From Sulfuricurvum sp. (lineage in GTDB: Bacteria; Campylobacterota; Campylobacteria; Campylobacterales; Sulfurimonadaceae): a stretch of DNA of 34,573 nucleotides. Shown piece after piece: positions 2,814 to 21,320 of the stretch (position 1 is the stretch's first letter; every line of letters begins with the position of its first letter). The translations under genes and the position numbers were made by a program. Location of the stretch: assembly GCF_028712165.1 (NCBI RefSeq), contig NZ_JAQTQR010000024.1, positions 1 through 34,573 of the forward strand, in the 5' to 3' direction. The notes below the pieces were generated by a model that saw nothing but the letters and a program-made list of their open reading frames with translations, was not told the origin of the DNA and did no database searches.

Positions 2814-2846
2814 GGATAACATCTGCACATGAAAAGAGGAAAACAT

Positions 2847-5714
2847 ATGTCAAAACTATATCTGTCTTGGTTCATGATATTGCTTCTTCCGCTAAGTCTC
2901 TTTGGCGAGGTGCGTTGTAACAAAGTTTATTCAGAGTTTTCTGCGATAGAAGAACTTTGTCCCTACAATGAAGGGCTGGCAGCATTCAAAATTCGGGATC
3001 AGTGGGGCTTTGTCGATACATCCGGTAAAATCGTTGTCGAACCGACGTATGATGATGTTCGCGATTTTTCGTCGGGTTTGGCGGCCGTTATCATTGATGA
3101 AAAATATGGCTTCATCGACAAATCAGGGAGTCTTGTTATCCCTATGCAATATACCTCGGTTGAAAGTTTTAGTGAAGGGCTGGCCGTCGTTGAAGTGGAG
3201 GGTAAGTATGGCTATATCGATGCTACAAATCGACTGATTATTCCGGCTATCTATGAGAGAGCCCAACCTTTTATGAACGGTGTTGCGGTAGTCGAGGACG
3301 AAGCTAAACGGACTCTCTTGATCGAGAAAAGTGGCAAGACCATCAAGACTTTCGATAGCAATGTTTCTTTGGATGGTTGGAACCAGGATTTTGGTCACTA
3401 TGTTGCAACGGTGAAGTACCCACCTTTTTTGATCAATGTTGATGGTCGGCGTATGGAATTTCCCTATGAAGCGGATAACAACCCTACTTACAGTGAGGGA
3501 GTGTTGATCGTCAACAAATATATCAATAACGAGTCTCTGTATGGAATTATGGATTTGAACGAAAAATGGCTCGTAGAGCCTAGATTTGTCGAGCTCGAAG
3601 CTTATTCCTCCGGACTCGCCATTGCTACAATTGAAGACAAATCAGAGACACATAATAGAAAATCAGGGTTAATCGACAAGGGTGGAAAATTTGTCGTTGC
3701 CCCGATTTATGATAGGCTCGAACGCAGTGATCAAGGGACATATTTTGGACACCAAACATCTCCGGAAGAGAAAACGGATGTGCTCGATGCCGCAGGAAAA
3801 CTCTTGTTCTCCACAAAGTGTGGGATATACCCAAGCGCTACTGAAGGGAACTGGAAGACATATCCGGGTTGCGAAGGTGACAGCGGAATCTGGGTCATGC
3901 ACCTAGGTGGTAAGCCGCAGCATCTATCCATCACGGAACCTGAAATCAGTCAAGTCGGCGACTATCTGCTTTTATCGAAAAAGAAGGATCAGGAGTACAC
4001 TGGGGGCTATGACGCAAATGAAACCTTTGTCCTCCTTGACCCTCATGGGATCGTGTTGTCTAGTGAAGATTCTGATGTGCAAGGGAAGTATAATTGGGTG
4101 AGACTGATCACATCGAAAGGTGAACAGGCAAACGCAAATCCGTATCTGCTCCCTGCGGCGATAATAATCAAGGATTATGAGCAAATAGCTATTTTGACAC
4201 AAGATCATAAGATACTCACACAAAAAGAGTGGAACTACGAATCGGAACTGCTTGATTACAGCTACAACTCTTCTGGTGAAGCTCTTGAAGGGCCTTTTAT
4301 TATGAAAGCAGGAGAAGTTTGGGGTGCTGTGGATGGACAGGGTAGGTGGGTTATTCAACCCGATTTCGAACGTTTGACGTTGTTCCGTCATGGTCTTGCG
4401 TTCGCCACATTTCATGATGAGGAGGTCATCGTTGATAACAGCGGACGAATCATTCCATTTCCTCCCGGTCGTAGCTATCGTCGCATTGCCCCGTTCCTTA
4501 TAACTGGAATGGATGAATCGGAAAACTCGGTGCTTTATCGGGTTACGGAAGGGAAGCTGGAAAAACTCAGTTTACCATCAGGTGTCATCCTCGGGGAGCA
4601 TATTGAGCAAGGACTAATTACGGCTCAGATTGACGAAAAATGGGGATTGCTCGATACCCGTGACGGACAATGGACGCTAGCCCCTGCCTATAGTACTGAG
4701 CCAGAGCCCCTATTGCAAGGGGCACATTTGATCGGCTGGAAGAGTAAGGTTCTAGTTCAGTTGGAAAAAAGTTCGATTGAACTTAAAGGTTTGATTTCAC
4801 CACTTGGTAAGGAGCTTATTAAGCCGCAGTTTTCAGATATAGTGATCGACTATCAAAAAGGTGAATTATTACGCACCACTAAAGGAAGCCAGAATGAGGG
4901 TCTGATCGATATAAACGGCAAAGAGATTTTACCCAACATTCATGATACGATCAGTTATACTGACCATGGCTGGTATCTCGCCAACCGCAAGGAGGAAAAG
5001 GGTTTGATCAACACCCGTGGAGAGTGGACGGTAGCCCCCGGACCTTATTGGTTTAGTCAATTGGATAAGCGTCCTTATTCCAGAGAAGAGAATAATGATG
5101 AGAAGGTGCAACATGTGCACGTAGATGGGATGATATCAACCAAAGAGAAACCACAGCCTATGGCCGACGATCAGCCTTCTTATTGGTGGTTTGTCATCGA
5201 GGGGACTTATGATGACAAGCAAACGGTGTTTTATGGTTTTGATTGGAAAGAGCGCCTCCGCTTAGAAGGAGAAGCTACGGACGAATTTTCCGAAGGCTGG
5301 ATTGTCCTCAATACCGGTGAAAAGAAACGCGGCTTTCCGACTGCACTGGCAAATAGTGCGGGTAAGGTCGTCGGACCTCTTCCATATGAAGAAATAAAAC
5401 CCATGCATAACGGACTTTTCCGTGTCAAAAAATCCATCCCTGATAAGCAGAAAAAAGGTGGTGATGAATACAAAGAGAGCAGTGTTTATGGTTTCATAAA
5501 CAGTTCAGGAAAGGTTGCCATTCCTTCAAAATTTGAAGCTGCAGATGATTTCTCGGAAGAGCGTGCCATTGTTCTTCTTCAAGGCAACTTGGGTGTCATT
5601 GACAAGAGCGGAAACTTGCTCTTGCATAGTGGATGGCATTGCGGTGAAGATCCGATCCTGTTGGATGGAAAGGGCAAAATTATTTGGCCAAAAAACGTGA
5701 AGCCGGGGTGTTAA
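2847..5714 (+). CDS. Large exported WG-repeat protein
   Basis: The product has 955 residues from the ATG at 2847. That start is preferred to the in-frame ATG at 2829 because AGAGGA at 2835-2840 lies six bases before it and the protein then opens with a compact signal peptide (MSKLYLSWFMILLLPLSLFG). At least ten WG (KWG) repeats follow: aromatic/G-[FYL]-[VI]-D-x-x-G-K-x-[VI]-x-P, each followed by a strand with GLA. The clearest are in the first 130 mature residues (WGFVDTSGKIVVEPTYDD, YGFIDKSGSLVIP, YGYIDATNRLIIP) and near the C-terminus (YGFINSSGKVAIP); central ones are degenerate. WG repeats form beta-propeller-like folds and are probably protein-binding. Two cysteines lie near the mature N-terminus and two near the C-terminus. 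Export points to a periplasmic binding role; a role as immunity or accessory factor is inferred only from the neighbours. Confidence 0.85.
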   Translation: MSKLYLSWFMILLLPLSLFGEVRCNKVYSEFSAIEELCPYNEGLAAFKIRDQWGFVDTSGKIVVEPTYDDVRDFSSGLAAVIIDEKYGFIDKSGSLVIPMQYTSVESFSEGLAVVEVEGKYGYIDATNRLIIPAIYERAQPFMNGVAVVEDEAKRTLLIEKSGKTIKTFDSNVSLDGWNQDFGHYVATVKYPPFLINVDGRRMEFPYEADNNPTYSEGVLIVNKYINNESLYGIMDLNEKWLVEPRFVELEAYSSGLAIATIEDKSETHNRKSGLIDKGGKFVVAPIYDRLERSDQGTYFGHQTSPEEKTDVLDAAGKLLFSTKCGIYPSATEGNWKTYPGCEGDSGIWVMHLGGKPQHLSITEPEISQVGDYLLLSKKKDQEYTGGYDANETFVLLDPHGIVLSSEDSDVQGKYNWVRLITSKGEQANANPYLLPAAIIIKDYEQIAILTQDHKILTQKEWNYESELLDYSYNSSGEALEGPFIMKAGEVWGAVDGQGRWVIQPDFERLTLFRHGLAFATFHDEEVIVDNSGRIIPFPPGRSYRRIAPFLITGMDESENSVLYRVTEGKLEKLSLPSGVILGEHIEQGLITAQIDEKWGLLDTRDGQWTLAPAYSTEPEPLLQGAHLIGWKSKVLVQLEKSSIELKGLISPLGKELIKPQFSDIVIDYQKGELLRTTKGSQNEGLIDINGKEILPNIHDTISYTDHGWYLANRKEEKGLINTRGEWTVAPGPYWFSQLDKRPYSREENNDEKVQHVHVDGMISTKEKPQPMADDQPSYWWFVIEGTYDDKQTVFYGFDWKERLRLEGEATDEFSEGWIVLNTGEKKRGFPTALANSAGKVVGPLPYEEIKPMHNGLFRVKKSIPDKQKKGGDEYKESSVYGFINSSGKVAIPSKFEAADDFSEERAIVLLQGNLGVIDKSGNLLLHSGWHCGEDPILLDGKGKIIWPKNVKPGC

Positions 5715-14730: not shown

Positions 14731-15831
14731 TTAGTGCATATTATCCATTGTATGCATCAGTTCATGCATTTGTGTATCAAGTGTACTGACATATTGGGTC
14801 AATAAACTCATCTCTTCCATATTCTTATTGAGAACTTCATTGTTATCGCTGATGGATTGAATGAGAATATTGATAGTCGCTGAACTCTCTGCAAGACTTT
14901 TTTGGGTTCTTTCCGCAAGTTTACGTACTTCATCCGCAACAACCGCAAATCCTCGTCCGTGTTCACCCGCACGGGCAGCTTCGATAGCGGCATTAAGTGC
15001 TAAAAGATTTGTTTGTTCGGCGATGTCTCCTATGGTCACTAAAATAGCTTTCGTTTCACGAGCATTATCTACGGATGTATGCAAATTTTCAGAAAGATTT
15101 CGTTCTTCATTCGCTACAAATTGGATTTTATGGACTGTGGAATTAATCGTATTGTTCAGTTCGACAAATTTTGTGTCTCGCATAGATTTAAATTGTTGTG
15201 TTTTCGTATTCAGTGCTGTTTCGGAAGCTTCATTTTGATTTTGCATCATTAACAGAGCATTTCCAAGTTCATTGACTTTTTCAAGCAATTGTCCCATTTT
15301 GCCCTCAACATTGATATTTGCTCGGGTTTCATATTTGCCTATTGTCAGTTCTGTTAGGACTATCATTATGTCATCGATACTATGCTCAATGGAATCAAGC
15401 ATGGTATTCATTGTTTTTCGCACTAGATGGACATGCGGAGTTTGTGTATCATTTATGACTCTCTCGTCATAATGTCCTCGTTTGACCTTATCTGCCAAAA
15501 GGACCATTTCACCAGCGACTTTTATATCGGTAATCAACCCTGATTCATGCATTTTGATAATTGTATTTAGTTTTTCTTCTACACTATCGGCTTCTGCATC
15601 TATCGGATGTAATTTAGTACGTTTATATGACATTAAATCCATAAAGTCGTTGAGGTAATTGTTTATAGAGAAGTCGTTTTTATCCTGCTGTTGATTAATA
15701 AACCATACAGCACTGCTTATAATCCCTGCAATTATGATGAAAACTCCAATAACAGTGTGTGTCATGTACCATAAAATCAGGGCAAAAATACCTAAAGCAA
15801 TTAAAAGTGCTGATTTAAAAAAATGTGTCAT
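14731..15831 (-). CDS. MCP-like energy-taxis transducer without periplasmic domain (CetA-like)
   Basis: The product has 366 residues. Residues 5-48 form two adjacent membrane helices with almost no periplasmic loop. Residues 50-190 hold HAMP-like linker helices. The signalling tip is [20 protein letters not shown] and [15 protein letters not shown] around 262-308. Only about 60 residues follow the tip, so the second arm of the coiled coil is short and the second methylation region is probably missing. The upstream gene on the same strand encodes a free PAS protein. In Campylobacter jejuni the pair CetA (transducer) and CetB (FAD-PAS) works as a split Aer receptor for energy taxis; the present pair has the same parts in reversed order. 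AAAGGA at 15837-15842 supports the start. Confidence 0.85.
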
Positions 15832-15843
15832 ATATATCCTTTT

Positions 15844-16230
15844 TTAGTGCATTGTTTTATATAAGTCTGAAGCGATTGCAATCTCTTCTCTGCTTGGTTT
15901 TCTGCGACATGATATATATGTAACTTCATTGCTCTTGCCACTGCGAATCGGATATACAATCGAATAAACCCAGTAATAGTTGCCATTTTTTGTTTTATTT
16001 TTGACGTATCCGGTCCATGTCTTATCGGCTTGAATCGTTTCCCACAAATCTCGGAAGGCAGCTCTAGGCATATCAGGATGACGTACGATGTTGTGTTCTT
16101 GACCTATTAATTCCTCTAAAGAATATCCGGCAACTTTGCAAAAATCTTCATTTGCAAAGAGTATTATCCCCATTGAATCGGTTTGTGAAACTAAAAAATC
16201 GGTTTCCTGTAATATATATTCTTCATTCAT
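15844..16230 (-). CDS. Aer-type PAS redox sensor (CetB-like)
   Basis: The product has 128 residues made almost entirely of one PAS domain. The signature of Aer/CetB-type FAD-PAS domains is visible: FANEDFCKVAGYSLEELIGQ, then EHNIVRHPDMPRAAFRDLW, TWTGYVKNKTKNGNYYWV, and a final IVYPIRSG strand. It has no membrane segment and no output domain, so it must pass its signal to a partner. The partner is very probably the transducer encoded 12 bases downstream. Predicted role: bind FAD, sense the redox state of the electron transport chain, and set the swimming response through the MCP-like protein. Cofactor binding is inferred from family, not seen. Confidence 0.85.
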   Translation of the reverse strand: MNEEYILQETDFLVSQTDSMGIILFANEDFCKVAGYSLEELIGQEHNIVRHPDMPRAAFRDLWETIQADKTWTGYVKNKTKNGNYYWVYSIVYPIRSGKSNEVTYISCRRKPSREEIAIASDLYKTMH

Positions 16231-16412: not shown

Positions 16413-17120
16413 ATGGCCTACAATATTTTGCTTCTCAAAAATAAAAGTATCTTATACGTTGAAGATGATACGATTGCACGAATTGAAACAGCTGAGATTT
16501 TGAATATGTTATTTGAGAAAGTCTATATTGCTATGGATGGAGACGAAGCGTTACGATTGTATGAGGATGAATCTCCTGATATTTTATTAACCGATATTAA
16601 AATGCCTAAAAAAGACGGATTAAGCCTGATCCGTCAGATACGTCATACTGATTATGAACTTCCTATTGTCTTGATGACAAGCTTTGCGGAACAGGATTTA
16701 TTATTAAATGCGGCAAATCTCTCTATAGACGGTTACCTGGTTAAACCTGTTGATCTTGAAACACTGACTTCTACACTATGTAAAGCATTGCAGCGTACCC
16801 ATAAAAATGAGGGATTGATTGAACTTGGGAAAAACCTTTTTTATAACTTTGCAACTAAAGAACTTTATCATAACGGTTCTGTCGTGACATTAGGAATTAA
16901 AGAACAGGAACTTTTAGTTTTACTATTAAAAAATAGGTTTATGACCGTCACTAAGGATGAGATAGGAAAAACCCTATGGCCGCTTGACCCGATCTGTGAA
17001 TCAGCTATAAAAAATATTGTTTTGCGATTACGTAAAAAACTGGGGGTTGATATCATTATCTCTGTTCGAGGGATCGGTTATCGGCTTGAAACAAAAGAAC
17101 TACCCAGACAAAACGTATGA
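16413..17120 (+). CDS. OmpR/PhoB-type response regulator
   Basis: The product has 235 residues. The receiver domain (about 11-125) has acidic residues E17, D18 and D19, the phosphorylated D61 in LLTDIKMPKKDG, T89 in VLMTSF and K111 in GYLVKPVD. The winged-helix DNA-binding domain (about 140-230) has KEQELLVLLLKN, the helix IKNIVLRLRKKLG and the wing IISVRGIGYRLE. All key residues are present, so it should be activated by phosphorylation and bind direct repeats. Its stop overlaps the next ATG by four bases (ATGA), coupling it to the histidine kinase, its likely partner. Likely targets are its own promoter and the c-di-GMP gene downstream (see repeat features). Confidence 0.93.
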   Translation: MAYNILLLKNKSILYVEDDTIARIETAEILNMLFEKVYIAMDGDEALRLYEDESPDILLTDIKMPKKDGLSLIRQIRHTDYELPIVLMTSFAEQDLLLNAANLSIDGYLVKPVDLETLTSTLCKALQRTHKNEGLIELGKNLFYNFATKELYHNGSVVTLGIKEQELLVLLLKNRFMTVTKDEIGKTLWPLDPICESAIKNIVLRLRKKLGVDIIISVRGIGYRLETKELPRQNV

Positions 17121-19519
17121 TTTTCCTCCTAAATGAACGTATCTTATTGCTCCTGATTTTATTATTTTCCGCAATTGTTCTATCCCTCTATTTCGCATAT
17201 AAAATTAAATATCTCCAAAAAGAATGTGATCGTTTGACGAAAGAGACAAAAGAGGAAGCAAAAATCTTATTTTTGCAATCACGTAATGCATCAATGGGTG
17301 AAACGGTCGGAAATATTGCTCACCAATGGAAACAGCCTCTCAATGCTATAGGATCGATTCAAAACAGTATTAAGGCGGCACTGATTTTTCAGGGGGAAAT
17401 TTCAAAAGAGAAGCTTTTGTACTCAGTTGATACCAGTTTCAAATTAATACAGCATTTAGGTGAAACGATTGATACATTTTATAGCTTTTTGTCGCAGCGA
17501 AAGAATGAAAGTACGAGCTTTTTAATCGCTGATGAACTGGAAAAAGTACGAAAAATCACTGAATACTCTTTTGAAAACAGCCGTATCAAATTAAACTTTG
17601 AATTGGATGTCAACCCACTGATTCAGGGTAATCCAAATGAATTTATCCATGCAATATTAAATCTGATTCTCAATGCAAAAGATGCATTTGATGATACGTC
17701 TTACGATTCTGCCGCAATTACCCTAAATGTAAAGGGAAGAGAAAAAACGTGTATTATCACGGTCTCTGATAATGCGGGAGGTATCCGGTTAAACCCGTTG
17801 GAAATGATATTTGATCTGCATATTACGACAAAGCCTGAAGGTTCAGGACTCGGTCTTTACATGACAAAAAATATTATCGAAAAACGATTTGGAGGTACTA
17901 TTGCTGTCGTAAACAGTAACGGTGGTGCTTGTTTTACGATTGTTTTACCATACTCACAGAATAGTGTAAATCCCTTTGACCCGGAAACATCTGACGAAAA
18001 ACTGACATTGGAACGGATCAAACAACTGACGCATAAAATCATTGAATTAGAAGAGATGGAAAAAACTCTTAAAAAATGGGCAGAAATTTTTGAACATGCG
18101 CAATGGGGAATCGTCATCGGCACGGTAGAAGATCAGACCTTTGGAGTGATGAATTCCGCATTTGCCAGAATGCACGGTTACAGTGTCAAAGAGTTGAGAG
18201 GCAAAAAAATTGCATCTGTATTTGCACCTGAATGCATTGAAGATATGCAGCACGCTATGCAAATCACACACAACAAGGGATATTACTCTTTTGAGTCGAT
18301 CCACATTCGTAAAGACGGCTCACGATTTCCGGTAGCGATAGAACTTATAGCTGTTAAAGACGAGCAAGGTAATGTTCAGTACCGAATCGCGAATATCTGG
18401 GATATAACTGAGAAAAAAGCAGCTGAAGAGAGACTGCTACTCAAACGTTTTGCACTTGATCATATAAAAGATGCCGTATTCCTGATTGATGAGAATTCGA
18501 TGTTTCATTATGTCAATGAGGGGGCTTGTCAGTCTTTGGGCTATAGCAAAGAAGAACTTCTTACAATGGGAGTGATTCACATTGATCCGAACTGTCCGAT
18601 AGAGTGGTGGAGAGAACATTGGAAAGATATTCAAGAACAGGGAACGACCCTTGGGGTAACAGAATACAAACGAAGCGATGGAACACTATATCCGATCGAA
18701 GTAAGTTCAAATTACTTTGAATACGACGGTGTCGGATACAGTCTCGCTATCTCACGTGATATTACTGAACGGAAAAGTACCGAAGAGGCATTACGACAGA
18801 GTGAAGAAGCTTTCCGGGCAATGGTTGAAAACTCTCCTGATGTGATTATGCGATATGATTTAGAGGGTCGGCGTACCTACGCAAACCCGATGGCACAGAT
18901 ACTTATAGGCAAACCACTCGAAGATATACTCGGTAAAACGCCTGCGGAATATTCACCGTTACCTGTTCTCAAAGAATTTCAACAACTGTTTGAACGTGTC
19001 ATTTCTGAGGGTAAAGAGTATGAGTTAGAAAGTCCATATCGTACTGCGGATGGAGAAATTCGTTTCGGAAGCCAGCGTATCGTACCCGAGTTTGATAATG
19101 AAGGCAAAGTAGCCGGGGTTATGGTTATAGGACGGGATATTACAGAACGAAAGAATGCGGAAAAACAATTGAAATTACTCGAAACCGCTATCAATCATGC
19201 GAGCGATGCGGTGTATATTTTAGGAGATGATCGTACTGTCCGTTACGTTAGTGATACTGCTTGTCGAATGTTGGGATATACCCAAAATGAGCTGATGGGC
19301 ATGAAGATAGAAGAGATTGATGTTTATTTATCCGTGGATAAGATTGATACTATGATTGAAGATTTACGTATGGTGAATGATATGGTTTTTGAGACAAAAC
19401 ATAGAGCTAAAGACGGGCATATTTTGGATGTGGAGATTAACGTAACCACATTTGAGTATGACGGTATACCTTTAAAAATATCAATTGTTAAAGATATCAG
19501 TGGACGAAACGTAGTTTAA
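17117..19519 (+). CDS. Histidine kinase with N-terminal core and four C-terminal PAS domains
   Basis: The product has 800 residues. One membrane helix (about 8-28) and a short coiled coil are followed directly by the kinase core: H69 in MGETVGNIAHQWKQPLNA, the N box NLILNAKDAFDD, G1 SDNAGGI, and G2 EGSGLGLYMTKNI. Everything after about residue 290 is sensory: a coiled coil, then PAS domains at about 318-435, 444-560, 565-680 and 688-798, each ending in a D-I-[TS]-x-[KR] motif. There is no receiver, HPt, GGDEF or second kinase after them, which reverses the usual PAS-then-kinase order. The core is complete, so activity is expected; the cognate regulator is the overlapping upstream gene. PAS ligands are unknown. 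PAS1 is very similar to the PAS of the next gene. Confidence 0.92.
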   Translation: MIFLLNERILLLLILLFSAIVLSLYFAYKIKYLQKECDRLTKETKEEAKILFLQSRNASMGETVGNIAHQWKQPLNAIGSIQNSIKAALIFQGEISKEKLLYSVDTSFKLIQHLGETIDTFYSFLSQRKNESTSFLIADELEKVRKITEYSFENSRIKLNFELDVNPLIQGNPNEFIHAILNLILNAKDAFDDTSYDSAAITLNVKGREKTCIITVSDNAGGIRLNPLEMIFDLHITTKPEGSGLGLYMTKNIIEKRFGGTIAVVNSNGGACFTIVLPYSQNSVNPFDPETSDEKLTLERIKQLTHKIIELEEMEKTLKKWAEIFEHAQWGIVIGTVEDQTFGVMNSAFARMHGYSVKELRGKKIASVFAPECIEDMQHAMQITHNKGYYSFESIHIRKDGSRFPVAIELIAVKDEQGNVQYRIANIWDITEKKAAEERLLLKRFALDHIKDAVFLIDENSMFHYVNEGACQSLGYSKEELLTMGVIHIDPNCPIEWWREHWKDIQEQGTTLGVTEYKRSDGTLYPIEVSSNYFEYDGVGYSLAISRDITERKSTEEALRQSEEAFRAMVENSPDVIMRYDLEGRRTYANPMAQILIGKPLEDILGKTPAEYSPLPVLKEFQQLFERVISEGKEYELESPYRTADGEIRFGSQRIVPEFDNEGKVAGVMVIGRDITERKNAEKQLKLLETAINHASDAVYILGDDRTVRYVSDTACRMLGYTQNELMGMKIEEIDVYLSVDKIDTMIEDLRMVNDMVFETKHRAKDGHILDVEINVTTFEYDGIPLKISIVKDISGRNVV

Positions 19520-19637: not shown

Positions 19638-21320
19638 ATGTCGATAATTGAACCCCAAATGGAAAAATTAAAATACATTTTCGATAATGCAAAAGTAGGT
19701 ATCGCGATTTGCAATGCCGAGGATAACACCTTGGAAATGGTGAATCCTGCTTTTGCACATATTCACGGATATGAGCCACATGAACTTATCGGAATATCAC
19801 CTGCAGAAGTATTTGGTCCGGAATGCATGTTAAAATTGGAAACACATGAAATTCTTTTGGCTTGCGGAATGAATGATATTTCATTTGAAACGAATCATAT
19901 TAAAAAAGACGGCTCTCCTGTACCTGTTTCTGTCCATATTACAGTGATCAAAGATAAAAATGGAGTTGTAAAACATCGGATTGCAAATATTCAAGATATC
20001 ACAGAACGAAAAACGGTTGAAAAAAAAATAGAATTTATGGCGCATCATGATGCGCTTACGAGTTTGCCGAATCGTATCCTTGCAAAAGATAGGACGGAAA
20101 ATCTAATTTCCCAAGCAAATCATAACGGCTCAAAAGTAGCACTTCTCTTTATTGATCTTGACGGATTTAAATCGATTAATGATTCTTTAGGACATTCCGT
20201 CGGAGATGAGGTCCTAAAAATGGTCGCATTGCGCTTGATGGAAGATAAAAACCCTAACGATATTATCAGCAGACAAGGCGGAGATGAATTTCTTTATATC
20301 GTATCGATCAAAACATTGAATGAAATCATTTCTATAGTCAATAAACTTCTCAAGAAATTTGAAAAATCATTTTATGTCAAAAATCATGCTTTTAATACTT
20401 CAGCATCCATCGGAATAGCACTCTATCCTGACGATGGCGATTCTTTTGACATATTGCTTCAAAATGCTGATACTGCGATGTATGAAGCTAAAGAACACGG
20501 TAAAAATACCTACTGTTTTTACACTCAACAAATGAATTTGAATTTGATTGAACAACTGAAAATCCAAAATGACCTCAAAAACGCTTTGCAAAACAATGAA
20601 TTGGTACTGCATTTCCAACCACAAATCAATTTAGCGGATAATAAGATTATCGGGGCTGAAGCGCTGATCCGCTGGCAACATCCTGAACTAGGGATAATTA
20701 TGCCAATGGAATTTATTCCAATCGCAGAATCCAGAGGTTTAATTATTCAAATAGGGCAGTGGGTAATTGAAGAGTCATGCCGTCAAGCTGCAATTTGGCA
20801 ACAAAACGGAATAGATATCGTAATGGCAATTAACATTTCAGCGATGCAATTTTTACGCGGTAATCTAGAAAGTATAATTCGCAATGCACTCCAGATGAAC
20901 AAACTCAATCCTAAACAGCTTGAGCTCGAACTTACGGAGTCAATCATGATGCATAATACTGAAATTACATTACAATGCGTACGTAACCTAAAAGCCCTCG
21001 GCATTCAGCTTTCTCTGGATGATTTTGGTACCGGATATTCGAGTCTGGCATATCTAAAACGTTTTGCTGTTGATAAACTTAAGATTGATCAGTCATTTGT
21101 TCGTGATATTTTAAAAGATCGTGAGGATGCAACGATTGTCAAGACTATTATTCAAATGGCAAAAAATCTTAACTTAAAAACGATTGCGGAGGGAGTTGAG
21201 GATGCCAATGTCCTTGCTGTAATCGACGCATACGGGTGCGATGCGGTGCAAGGGTACCATTTCGCCAAACCGATGGGGGTATCCGAATTTGAAAAATATT
21301 ATAGGGAGAGAAAAATTTAA
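19638..21320 (+). CDS. PAS-GGDEF-EAL c-di-GMP turnover protein
   Basis: The product has 560 residues and no membrane helix, so it is cytosolic. PAS spans about 8-125, GGDEF about 135-290, and EAL about 310-555. The cyclase signature GGDEF is intact at residues 213-217, but the usual inhibitory RxxD site five residues before it reads NPND, so product inhibition is probably lost. The EAL domain keeps E341-A-L, the Asn in INISAMQF, the Glu in LELTESIM, DDFGTGYSSL, the Lys in KLKIDQSF, the Glu in IAEGVED and the Gln in AVQGYHF, so phosphodiesterase activity is expected. It may be bifunctional, controlled by its PAS. No strong ribosome-binding site; an internal ATG at 19659 is possible. Confidence 0.93.
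   Translation: MSIIEPQMEKLKYIFDNAKVGIAICNAEDNTLEMVNPAFAHIHGYEPHELIGISPAEVFGPECMLKLETHEILLACGMNDISFETNHIKKDGSPVPVSVHITVIKDKNGVVKHRIANIQDITERKTVEKKIEFMAHHDALTSLPNRILAKDRTENLISQANHNGSKVALLFIDLDGFKSINDSLGHSVGDEVLKMVALRLMEDKNPNDIISRQGGDEFLYIVSIKTLNEIISIVNKLLKKFEKSFYVKNHAFNTSASIGIALYPDDGDSFDILLQNADTAMYEAKEHGKNTYCFYTQQMNLNLIEQLKIQNDLKNALQNNELVLHFQPQINLADNKIIGAEALIRWQHPELGIIMPMEFIPIAESRGLIIQIGQWVIEESCRQAAIWQQNGIDIVMAINISAMQFLRGNLESIIRNALQMNKLNPKQLELELTESIMMHNTEITLQCVRNLKALGIQLSLDDFGTGYSSLAYLKRFAVDKLKIDQSFVRDILKDREDATIVKTIIQMAKNLNLKTIAEGVEDANVLAVIDAYGCDAVQGYHFAKPMGVSEFEKYYRERKI

Follow-up and report, generated by a model that had tools for sequence, protein, structure and literature searches.

In models of histidine kinase signaling, an N-terminal sensor passes the signal along a helix to the DHp domain. 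The contig of Sulfuricurvum sp. analyzed here (NZ_JAQTQR010000024.1; the whole stretch of 34,573 nucleotides is referred to as the window) encodes a kinase in which four PAS domains instead lie behind the ATP-binding domain, raising the question of whether this order is real and, if so, what a tail of this kind could do for the kinase that carries it. The original prediction, made from the nucleotide sequence and its open reading frames, proposed that signals travel backward from the tail or that the tail acts as a partner-binding or inhibitory module.

Sequence and structure analysis

Relatives of the kinase were searched at four levels (relatives, family, order, and phylum), and their domains were mapped by using profiles built here. 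The N-terminal and C-terminal pieces were aligned separately. AlphaFold models were generated as monomers, with an alignment of 17 sequences used for the core model. Coordinates of the features discussed are given in Table 1.

Table 1. Features of the kinase locus (window positions; aa, residue numbers of the encoded protein)
Feature	Position	Strand	Basis or comment
OmpR-type response regulator (REC + winged helix)	16413..17120	+	Pfam Response_reg, Trans_reg_C; 4 bp overlap with kinase start
PAS-tailed histidine kinase	17117..19519	+	800 aa, ATG to TAA, in a single unbroken frame
Single TM helix (aa ~9-30)	17141..17206	+	Hydrophobic sequence; part of helix 2-91 in AlphaFold model
DHp domain (aa 48-126)	17258..17494	+	Motif and alignment; two-helix DHp in model
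Phospho-acceptor His69 codon (putative)	17321-17323	+	Inside DHp
HATPase_c / CA domain (aa 172-280)	17630..17956	+	Pfam PF02518, E 8e-17
Conserved linker helix (aa 293-327)	17993..18097	+	Alignments and model; W321, I324, F325 invariant
PAS1 (aa 324-440)	18086..18436	+	Sister of PAS1 of neighboring GGDEF-EAL protein
PAS2 (aa 446-559)	18452..18793	+	Second conserved tail PAS
PAS3 (aa 569-685)	18821..19171	+	Counterpart of penultimate PAS in longer tails
PAS4 (aa 691-800)	19187..19516	+	Counterpart of terminal PAS in longer tails; protein stops 7 aa past its last strand
PAS-GGDEF-EAL protein, 560 aa, likely partner	19638..21320	+	GGDEF, EAL, DDFGTGYSS, EGVE motifs present

Domain architecture of the window protein

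The kinase ORF encodes, in order, a single TM helix, DHp, HATPase_c, a conserved helix, and four PAS domains. Its catalytic motifs are intact (H-box NIAHQWKQPL with His69, N-box, G1 DNAGGI, and G2 GSGLGL), and in an alignment of 17 sequences the key motif residues vary little or not at all, with His69 invariant in all 17. The Pfam HisKA model gave no match to the DHp of the window protein, and this domain was recognized by motif and alignment. Judged by its sequence, the protein would be an orthodox histidine kinase, having the HATPase_c boxes, a DHp histidine, and an adjoining regulator gene, and it is predicted to carry out autophosphorylation and phosphotransfer.

The four PAS stretches C-terminal to HATPase_c were found by Pfam and again by using TIGR00229 (E 8e-79). 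A Pfam search of the 800-aa protein returned only PAS behind the core, with no receiver, second kinase, or other output, and neither Pfam nor our own profiles placed a PAS N-terminal to DHp. A periplasmic domain is absent from the N-terminus in the window protein and in its genus. Among the 34 HATPase_c ORFs counted in the genome of the window (from genome stretches, using profiles that recognized 34 of the 44 Pfam matches), PAS follows the core in one, the window protein, and precedes it in nine.

In the AlphaFold core model (mean pLDDT 76.8, pTM 0.40), the membrane helix runs into a two-helix DHp, followed by CA, the helix at 293-327, PAS1, and PAS2, with pLDDT under 50 in the hinge at 283-302. 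A second model, covering PAS3 and PAS4 (mean pLDDT 87.9), places the last strand 7 residues before the stop. The core-first order, TM helix, and four trailing PAS domains that had been read from the sequence were borne out by Pfam, alignment, and these models. The best 50 matches of a PDB fold search, judged by length and title, corresponded to the kinase part or to PAS pairs, and none was identified as spanning both in the window order; among solved structures, the best sequence relatives of the core are FixL chimeras.

The linker helix and PAS tail

Mean identity across the family is 52% in the CA domain and 49% in the linker helix (298-329), and falls to 17% in the hinge (281-297). PAS1 and PAS2 can be aligned throughout the family, with a mean identity of 43-44% across four families. 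No invariant His or Cys, LOV motif, LOV Cys, or other cofactor residue was found in the two domains.

Given that the counterparts of its four PAS domains in longer tails are type 1, type 2, the penultimate type, and the last type, the tail of the window protein reads as an internally shortened array in which both ends have been kept. For the terminal PAS pair, counterparts could be aligned in seven relatives, and the majority of these proteins end no more than a few residues from its last strand. Several other relatives end in a different PAS type. At L034 (5360-7876, minus strand), the tail stops sooner, with a coiled coil (LEQKVKERTLQL) and no terminal PAS of the kind present in the relatives.

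Distribution and phylogeny of tailed kinases

The same kinase core with 3-12 PAS domains behind it was found at 17 other Campylobacterales loci, giving 18 loci with the window. Domain mapping using our own profiles identified no receiver, GGDEF, second kinase, or other output behind the tail at any of the 18. The core-first, PAS-last order is beyond chance, since it recurs at 17 other loci. Neither of the refuting findings named with the original prediction, an assembly error or a homologue whose tail runs on into an output domain, was seen. The window protein is a member of this family, with the core, the conserved linker helix, PAS1 and PAS2, and a PAS end lacking output.

Tailed kinases are spread over four families of the order, and the longer relatives carry 8-12 PAS domains, a range that went beyond what had been predicted from the window. 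Within the genus, 6 of the 41 genomes examined contain a tailed kinase, so that the distribution is patchy. Other related loci come from Sulfurospirillaceae. In a maximum-likelihood tree of DHp and CA, the tailed kinases and tailless 7TM kinases of Sulfurospirillaceae (L072, L074, L075, and L078) form one clade (100/99), which stands apart from the other sampled kinases and within which the tail label needs one change. Because the tailless group is nested among tailed kinases in the drawn tree, an early gain followed by a loss is no less likely than a late gain. Several of the tailless kinases also adjoin the same type of regulator gene, but they stop at the end of HATPase_c and have a long N-terminal module that is absent from the window protein.

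A long N-terminal module is also present in roughly half of the tailed relatives; Pfam identified that of L036 as 7TMR-DISM, and for the others this identity was inferred from the position of the core and the hydrophobic sequence. In the genus of the window there is one helix only, the end of which (YKI[KR]xL) is similar to the final helix of the relatives' 7TM module. At L045 the N-terminus looks soluble (coil), and the tail is still kept. Since the N-terminus varies (7TM receptor, single TM, or soluble) while the linker helix, PAS1, and PAS2 are kept, the front end is exchangeable and the tail is not.

No PAS followed the core in any of 103 HATPase ORFs from 80 loci of other genomes across many phyla, a scan with the core alignment that serves as a rarity control only and leaves tailed kinases outside Campylobacterales possible. 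The patterns used in this contig scan fell on general kinase motifs, so the matches were ordinary kinases. Literature searches for kinases with C-terminal PAS domains (subscription papers lay outside the search) returned hybrid kinases or unrelated proteins only. The PAS-tailed kinase is a real, conserved, and apparently undescribed variant of signaling protein, no described equivalent having been found in the literature searched.

Gene neighborhood and the c-di-GMP enzyme

Not foreseen by the original prediction was the placement of the kinase between its regulator gene and a PAS-GGDEF-EAL gene. An OmpR-type regulator gene is adjacent, on the same strand, in 16 of the 17 loci with upstream flank, and an orthologue of the window regulator (60-78% identical) adjoins the tailed kinase in all eight tested relatives whose contig reaches it. 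At L045 (4378-5918) and L046 (1762-3306), two tandem OmpR-type regulators precede the tailed kinase, and the GGDEF-EAL gene lies upstream.

The PAS-GGDEF-EAL gene of the window begins 118 bp downstream of the kinase. A GGDEF-EAL gene is found on the same strand at 13 of the 16 loci with enough flank (window included; 11 downstream and 2 upstream) and is absent at the other three. Of 34 kinases in the genome of the window, the window kinase alone has an EAL gene within 2.5 kb.

The PAS domains of the kinase tails and of the enzymes were compared in a FastTree of 242 domains, a tree with few columns per row and unreliable deeper forks. The 18 tail PAS1 domains form one group (94), the sister of which is PAS1 of the neighboring GGDEF-EAL gene from six loci including the window (together 99). 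Tail PAS1 and enzyme PAS1 of the window are 42% identical, and each of the 18 tail PAS1 domains finds its best enzyme match in a first-position PAS. Further PAS types are common to kinase tails and enzyme arrays, and several neighboring enzymes have other types in first position. The kinases at L031 (3168-5840) and L032 (6169-10185) are 93% identical in PAS2 and 46% in PAS1, which looks like domain-wise exchange.

Several other arrangements were observed around these genes. At L047 (13835-19900), the tailed kinase of G160 has no GGDEF-EAL neighbor; 3.6 kb downstream of it lies a hybrid kinase consisting of 11 PAS domains, then HATPase and a receiver. At L068 (8847-10412), the tailed kinase and the GGDEF-EAL gene are separated by a 522-aa ORF with two PAS domains and no recognized output. 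On the minus strand of the window at 14731-16230, divergently oriented to the regulator gene, are a 128-aa PAS protein and a TM-MCP signaling protein, a pair that we take to resemble the CetB/CetA energy-taxis pair of Campylobacter. The same MCP is divergent beside the tailed kinase in G025 too. Elsewhere in the window, a 961-aa protein made up mostly of WG repeats is encoded at 2829-5714 (plus strand). Promoter and terminator scans gave results at chance level.

Discussion

Each of the known systems compared here shares part of this architecture. PAS-containing sensor kinases of the FixL and ZraS/AtoS type combine PAS, DHp, and HATPase_c with a regulator partner, but the window protein has PAS behind the core rather than before it and nothing after PAS. 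Hybrid histidine kinases (HK-REC) have a long C-terminal extension past HATPase_c, whereas the extension of the window protein holds PAS only and no receiver. Multi-PAS GGDEF-EAL enzymes (DosP and DibA type) contain a PAS array of the same types, including the sister of tail PAS1, but their array precedes a c-di-GMP enzyme and that of the window follows a kinase. In double-sensor hybrid kinases of the TodS type, a PAS lies C-terminal to the first kinase core, and in TodS its dimerization restrains output (PMC4861429). However, PAS2 of TodS continues into a second kinase and TodS holds a receiver, neither of which is present in the window protein.

The reading that we favor, and to which we give about an even chance, is that the regulator and kinase are a two-component pair in which the PAS string is a constant C-terminal regulatory module, a dimeric rod that tethers CA. 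Tandem PAS domains commonly form parallel dimeric rods, and we infer that the linker helix and PAS domains may do so through their helices. The mobile CA, on its flexible hinge, would be confined between two dimer anchors, with DHp ahead of it and the PAS rod behind. Binding of a ligand or partner by the rod would shift where CA can go, and altered CA placement would in turn shift the balance of autophosphorylation versus phosphatase activity towards the regulator. PAS-PAS contact between the kinase and the c-di-GMP enzyme is a plausible second role, because tail PAS1 is the sister of enzyme PAS1.

Consistent with a tether are the same order at 18 loci, their grouping in one clade, the conserved linker beside a variable hinge of low pLDDT, and the linked genes. 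Against it stand the search for cofactor residues in PAS1 and PAS2, which found none, the three loci without a GGDEF-EAL neighbor, and a signal direction that is invisible in sequence. Where relatives have a 7TM receptor, a classical front-end sensor is present as well, so the tail cannot act as sole input there. Among the papers surveyed, the nearest experimental precedent is TodS, in which PAS2 follows the first kinase module and basal output rose when its dimerization helix was deleted (PMC4861429). Backward signaling and partner binding, as originally proposed for the tail, are still a fair pair of hypotheses.

The relationship between the two PAS1 groups also allows readings in which the enzyme matters more. 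Tentatively, kinase tail and GGDEF-EAL protein could form one complex in which PAS1 pairs with PAS1, the arrays share an exchangeable PAS stock, and the two-component kinase governs c-di-GMP turnover, or is governed by it, by way of its C-terminal end. It is likewise possible, if rather doubtful, that the tail is mainly a docking platform for the enzyme through PAS-PAS contacts, coupling kinase state and c-di-GMP turnover while the kinase itself is unregulated by the tail. The sister grouping, the first-position matches of all 18 tail PAS1 domains, the gene linkage at 13 of 16 loci, and the PAS types common to both arrays all suggest docking, but homology by itself does not demonstrate contact, three tailed kinases have no such neighbor, and the first PAS of several neighboring enzymes is of another type.

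Classical signal entry through the N-terminal membrane helix, with the tail serving for oligomerization or clustering only, would agree with the modeled continuity of TM helix and DHp and with the long N-terminal module (7TMR-DISM where tested) that precedes the core in roughly half of the relatives. We consider it unlikely, given that the tail is kept nonetheless in the window and its genus, which have no periplasmic domain, and at L045 with its soluble-looking N-terminus. That the tail is a functionless remnant of a fusion that lost its output (GGDEF-EAL or a second kinase) is very improbable. The next gene, 118 bp downstream, opens with a related PAS and then GGDEF-EAL, and such fusions are easily imagined; the tails of the relatives nevertheless disfavor a remnant, since no output domain follows in any of them, seven share an alignable terminal PAS pair and mostly end no more than a few residues from its last strand, and PAS1 and PAS2 retain 43-44% mean identity over four families. 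The prospect of an assembly chimera or frameshift artefact is negligible. The window assembly does consist of 130 contigs, but the kinase is a single open frame and the same order in 17 other genomes, in some of them within one contig, rules such an error out.

The mechanism of the PAS-tailed kinase is testable. This conserved family, whose only recognizable sensory-type domains sit C-terminal to the ATP-binding domain, offers a natural way of testing whether a kinase can be controlled from that end, and its varying number of PAS domains (3-12) supplies ready-made natural variants. The family is also suggestive of a physical connection between two-component signaling and c-di-GMP enzymes.
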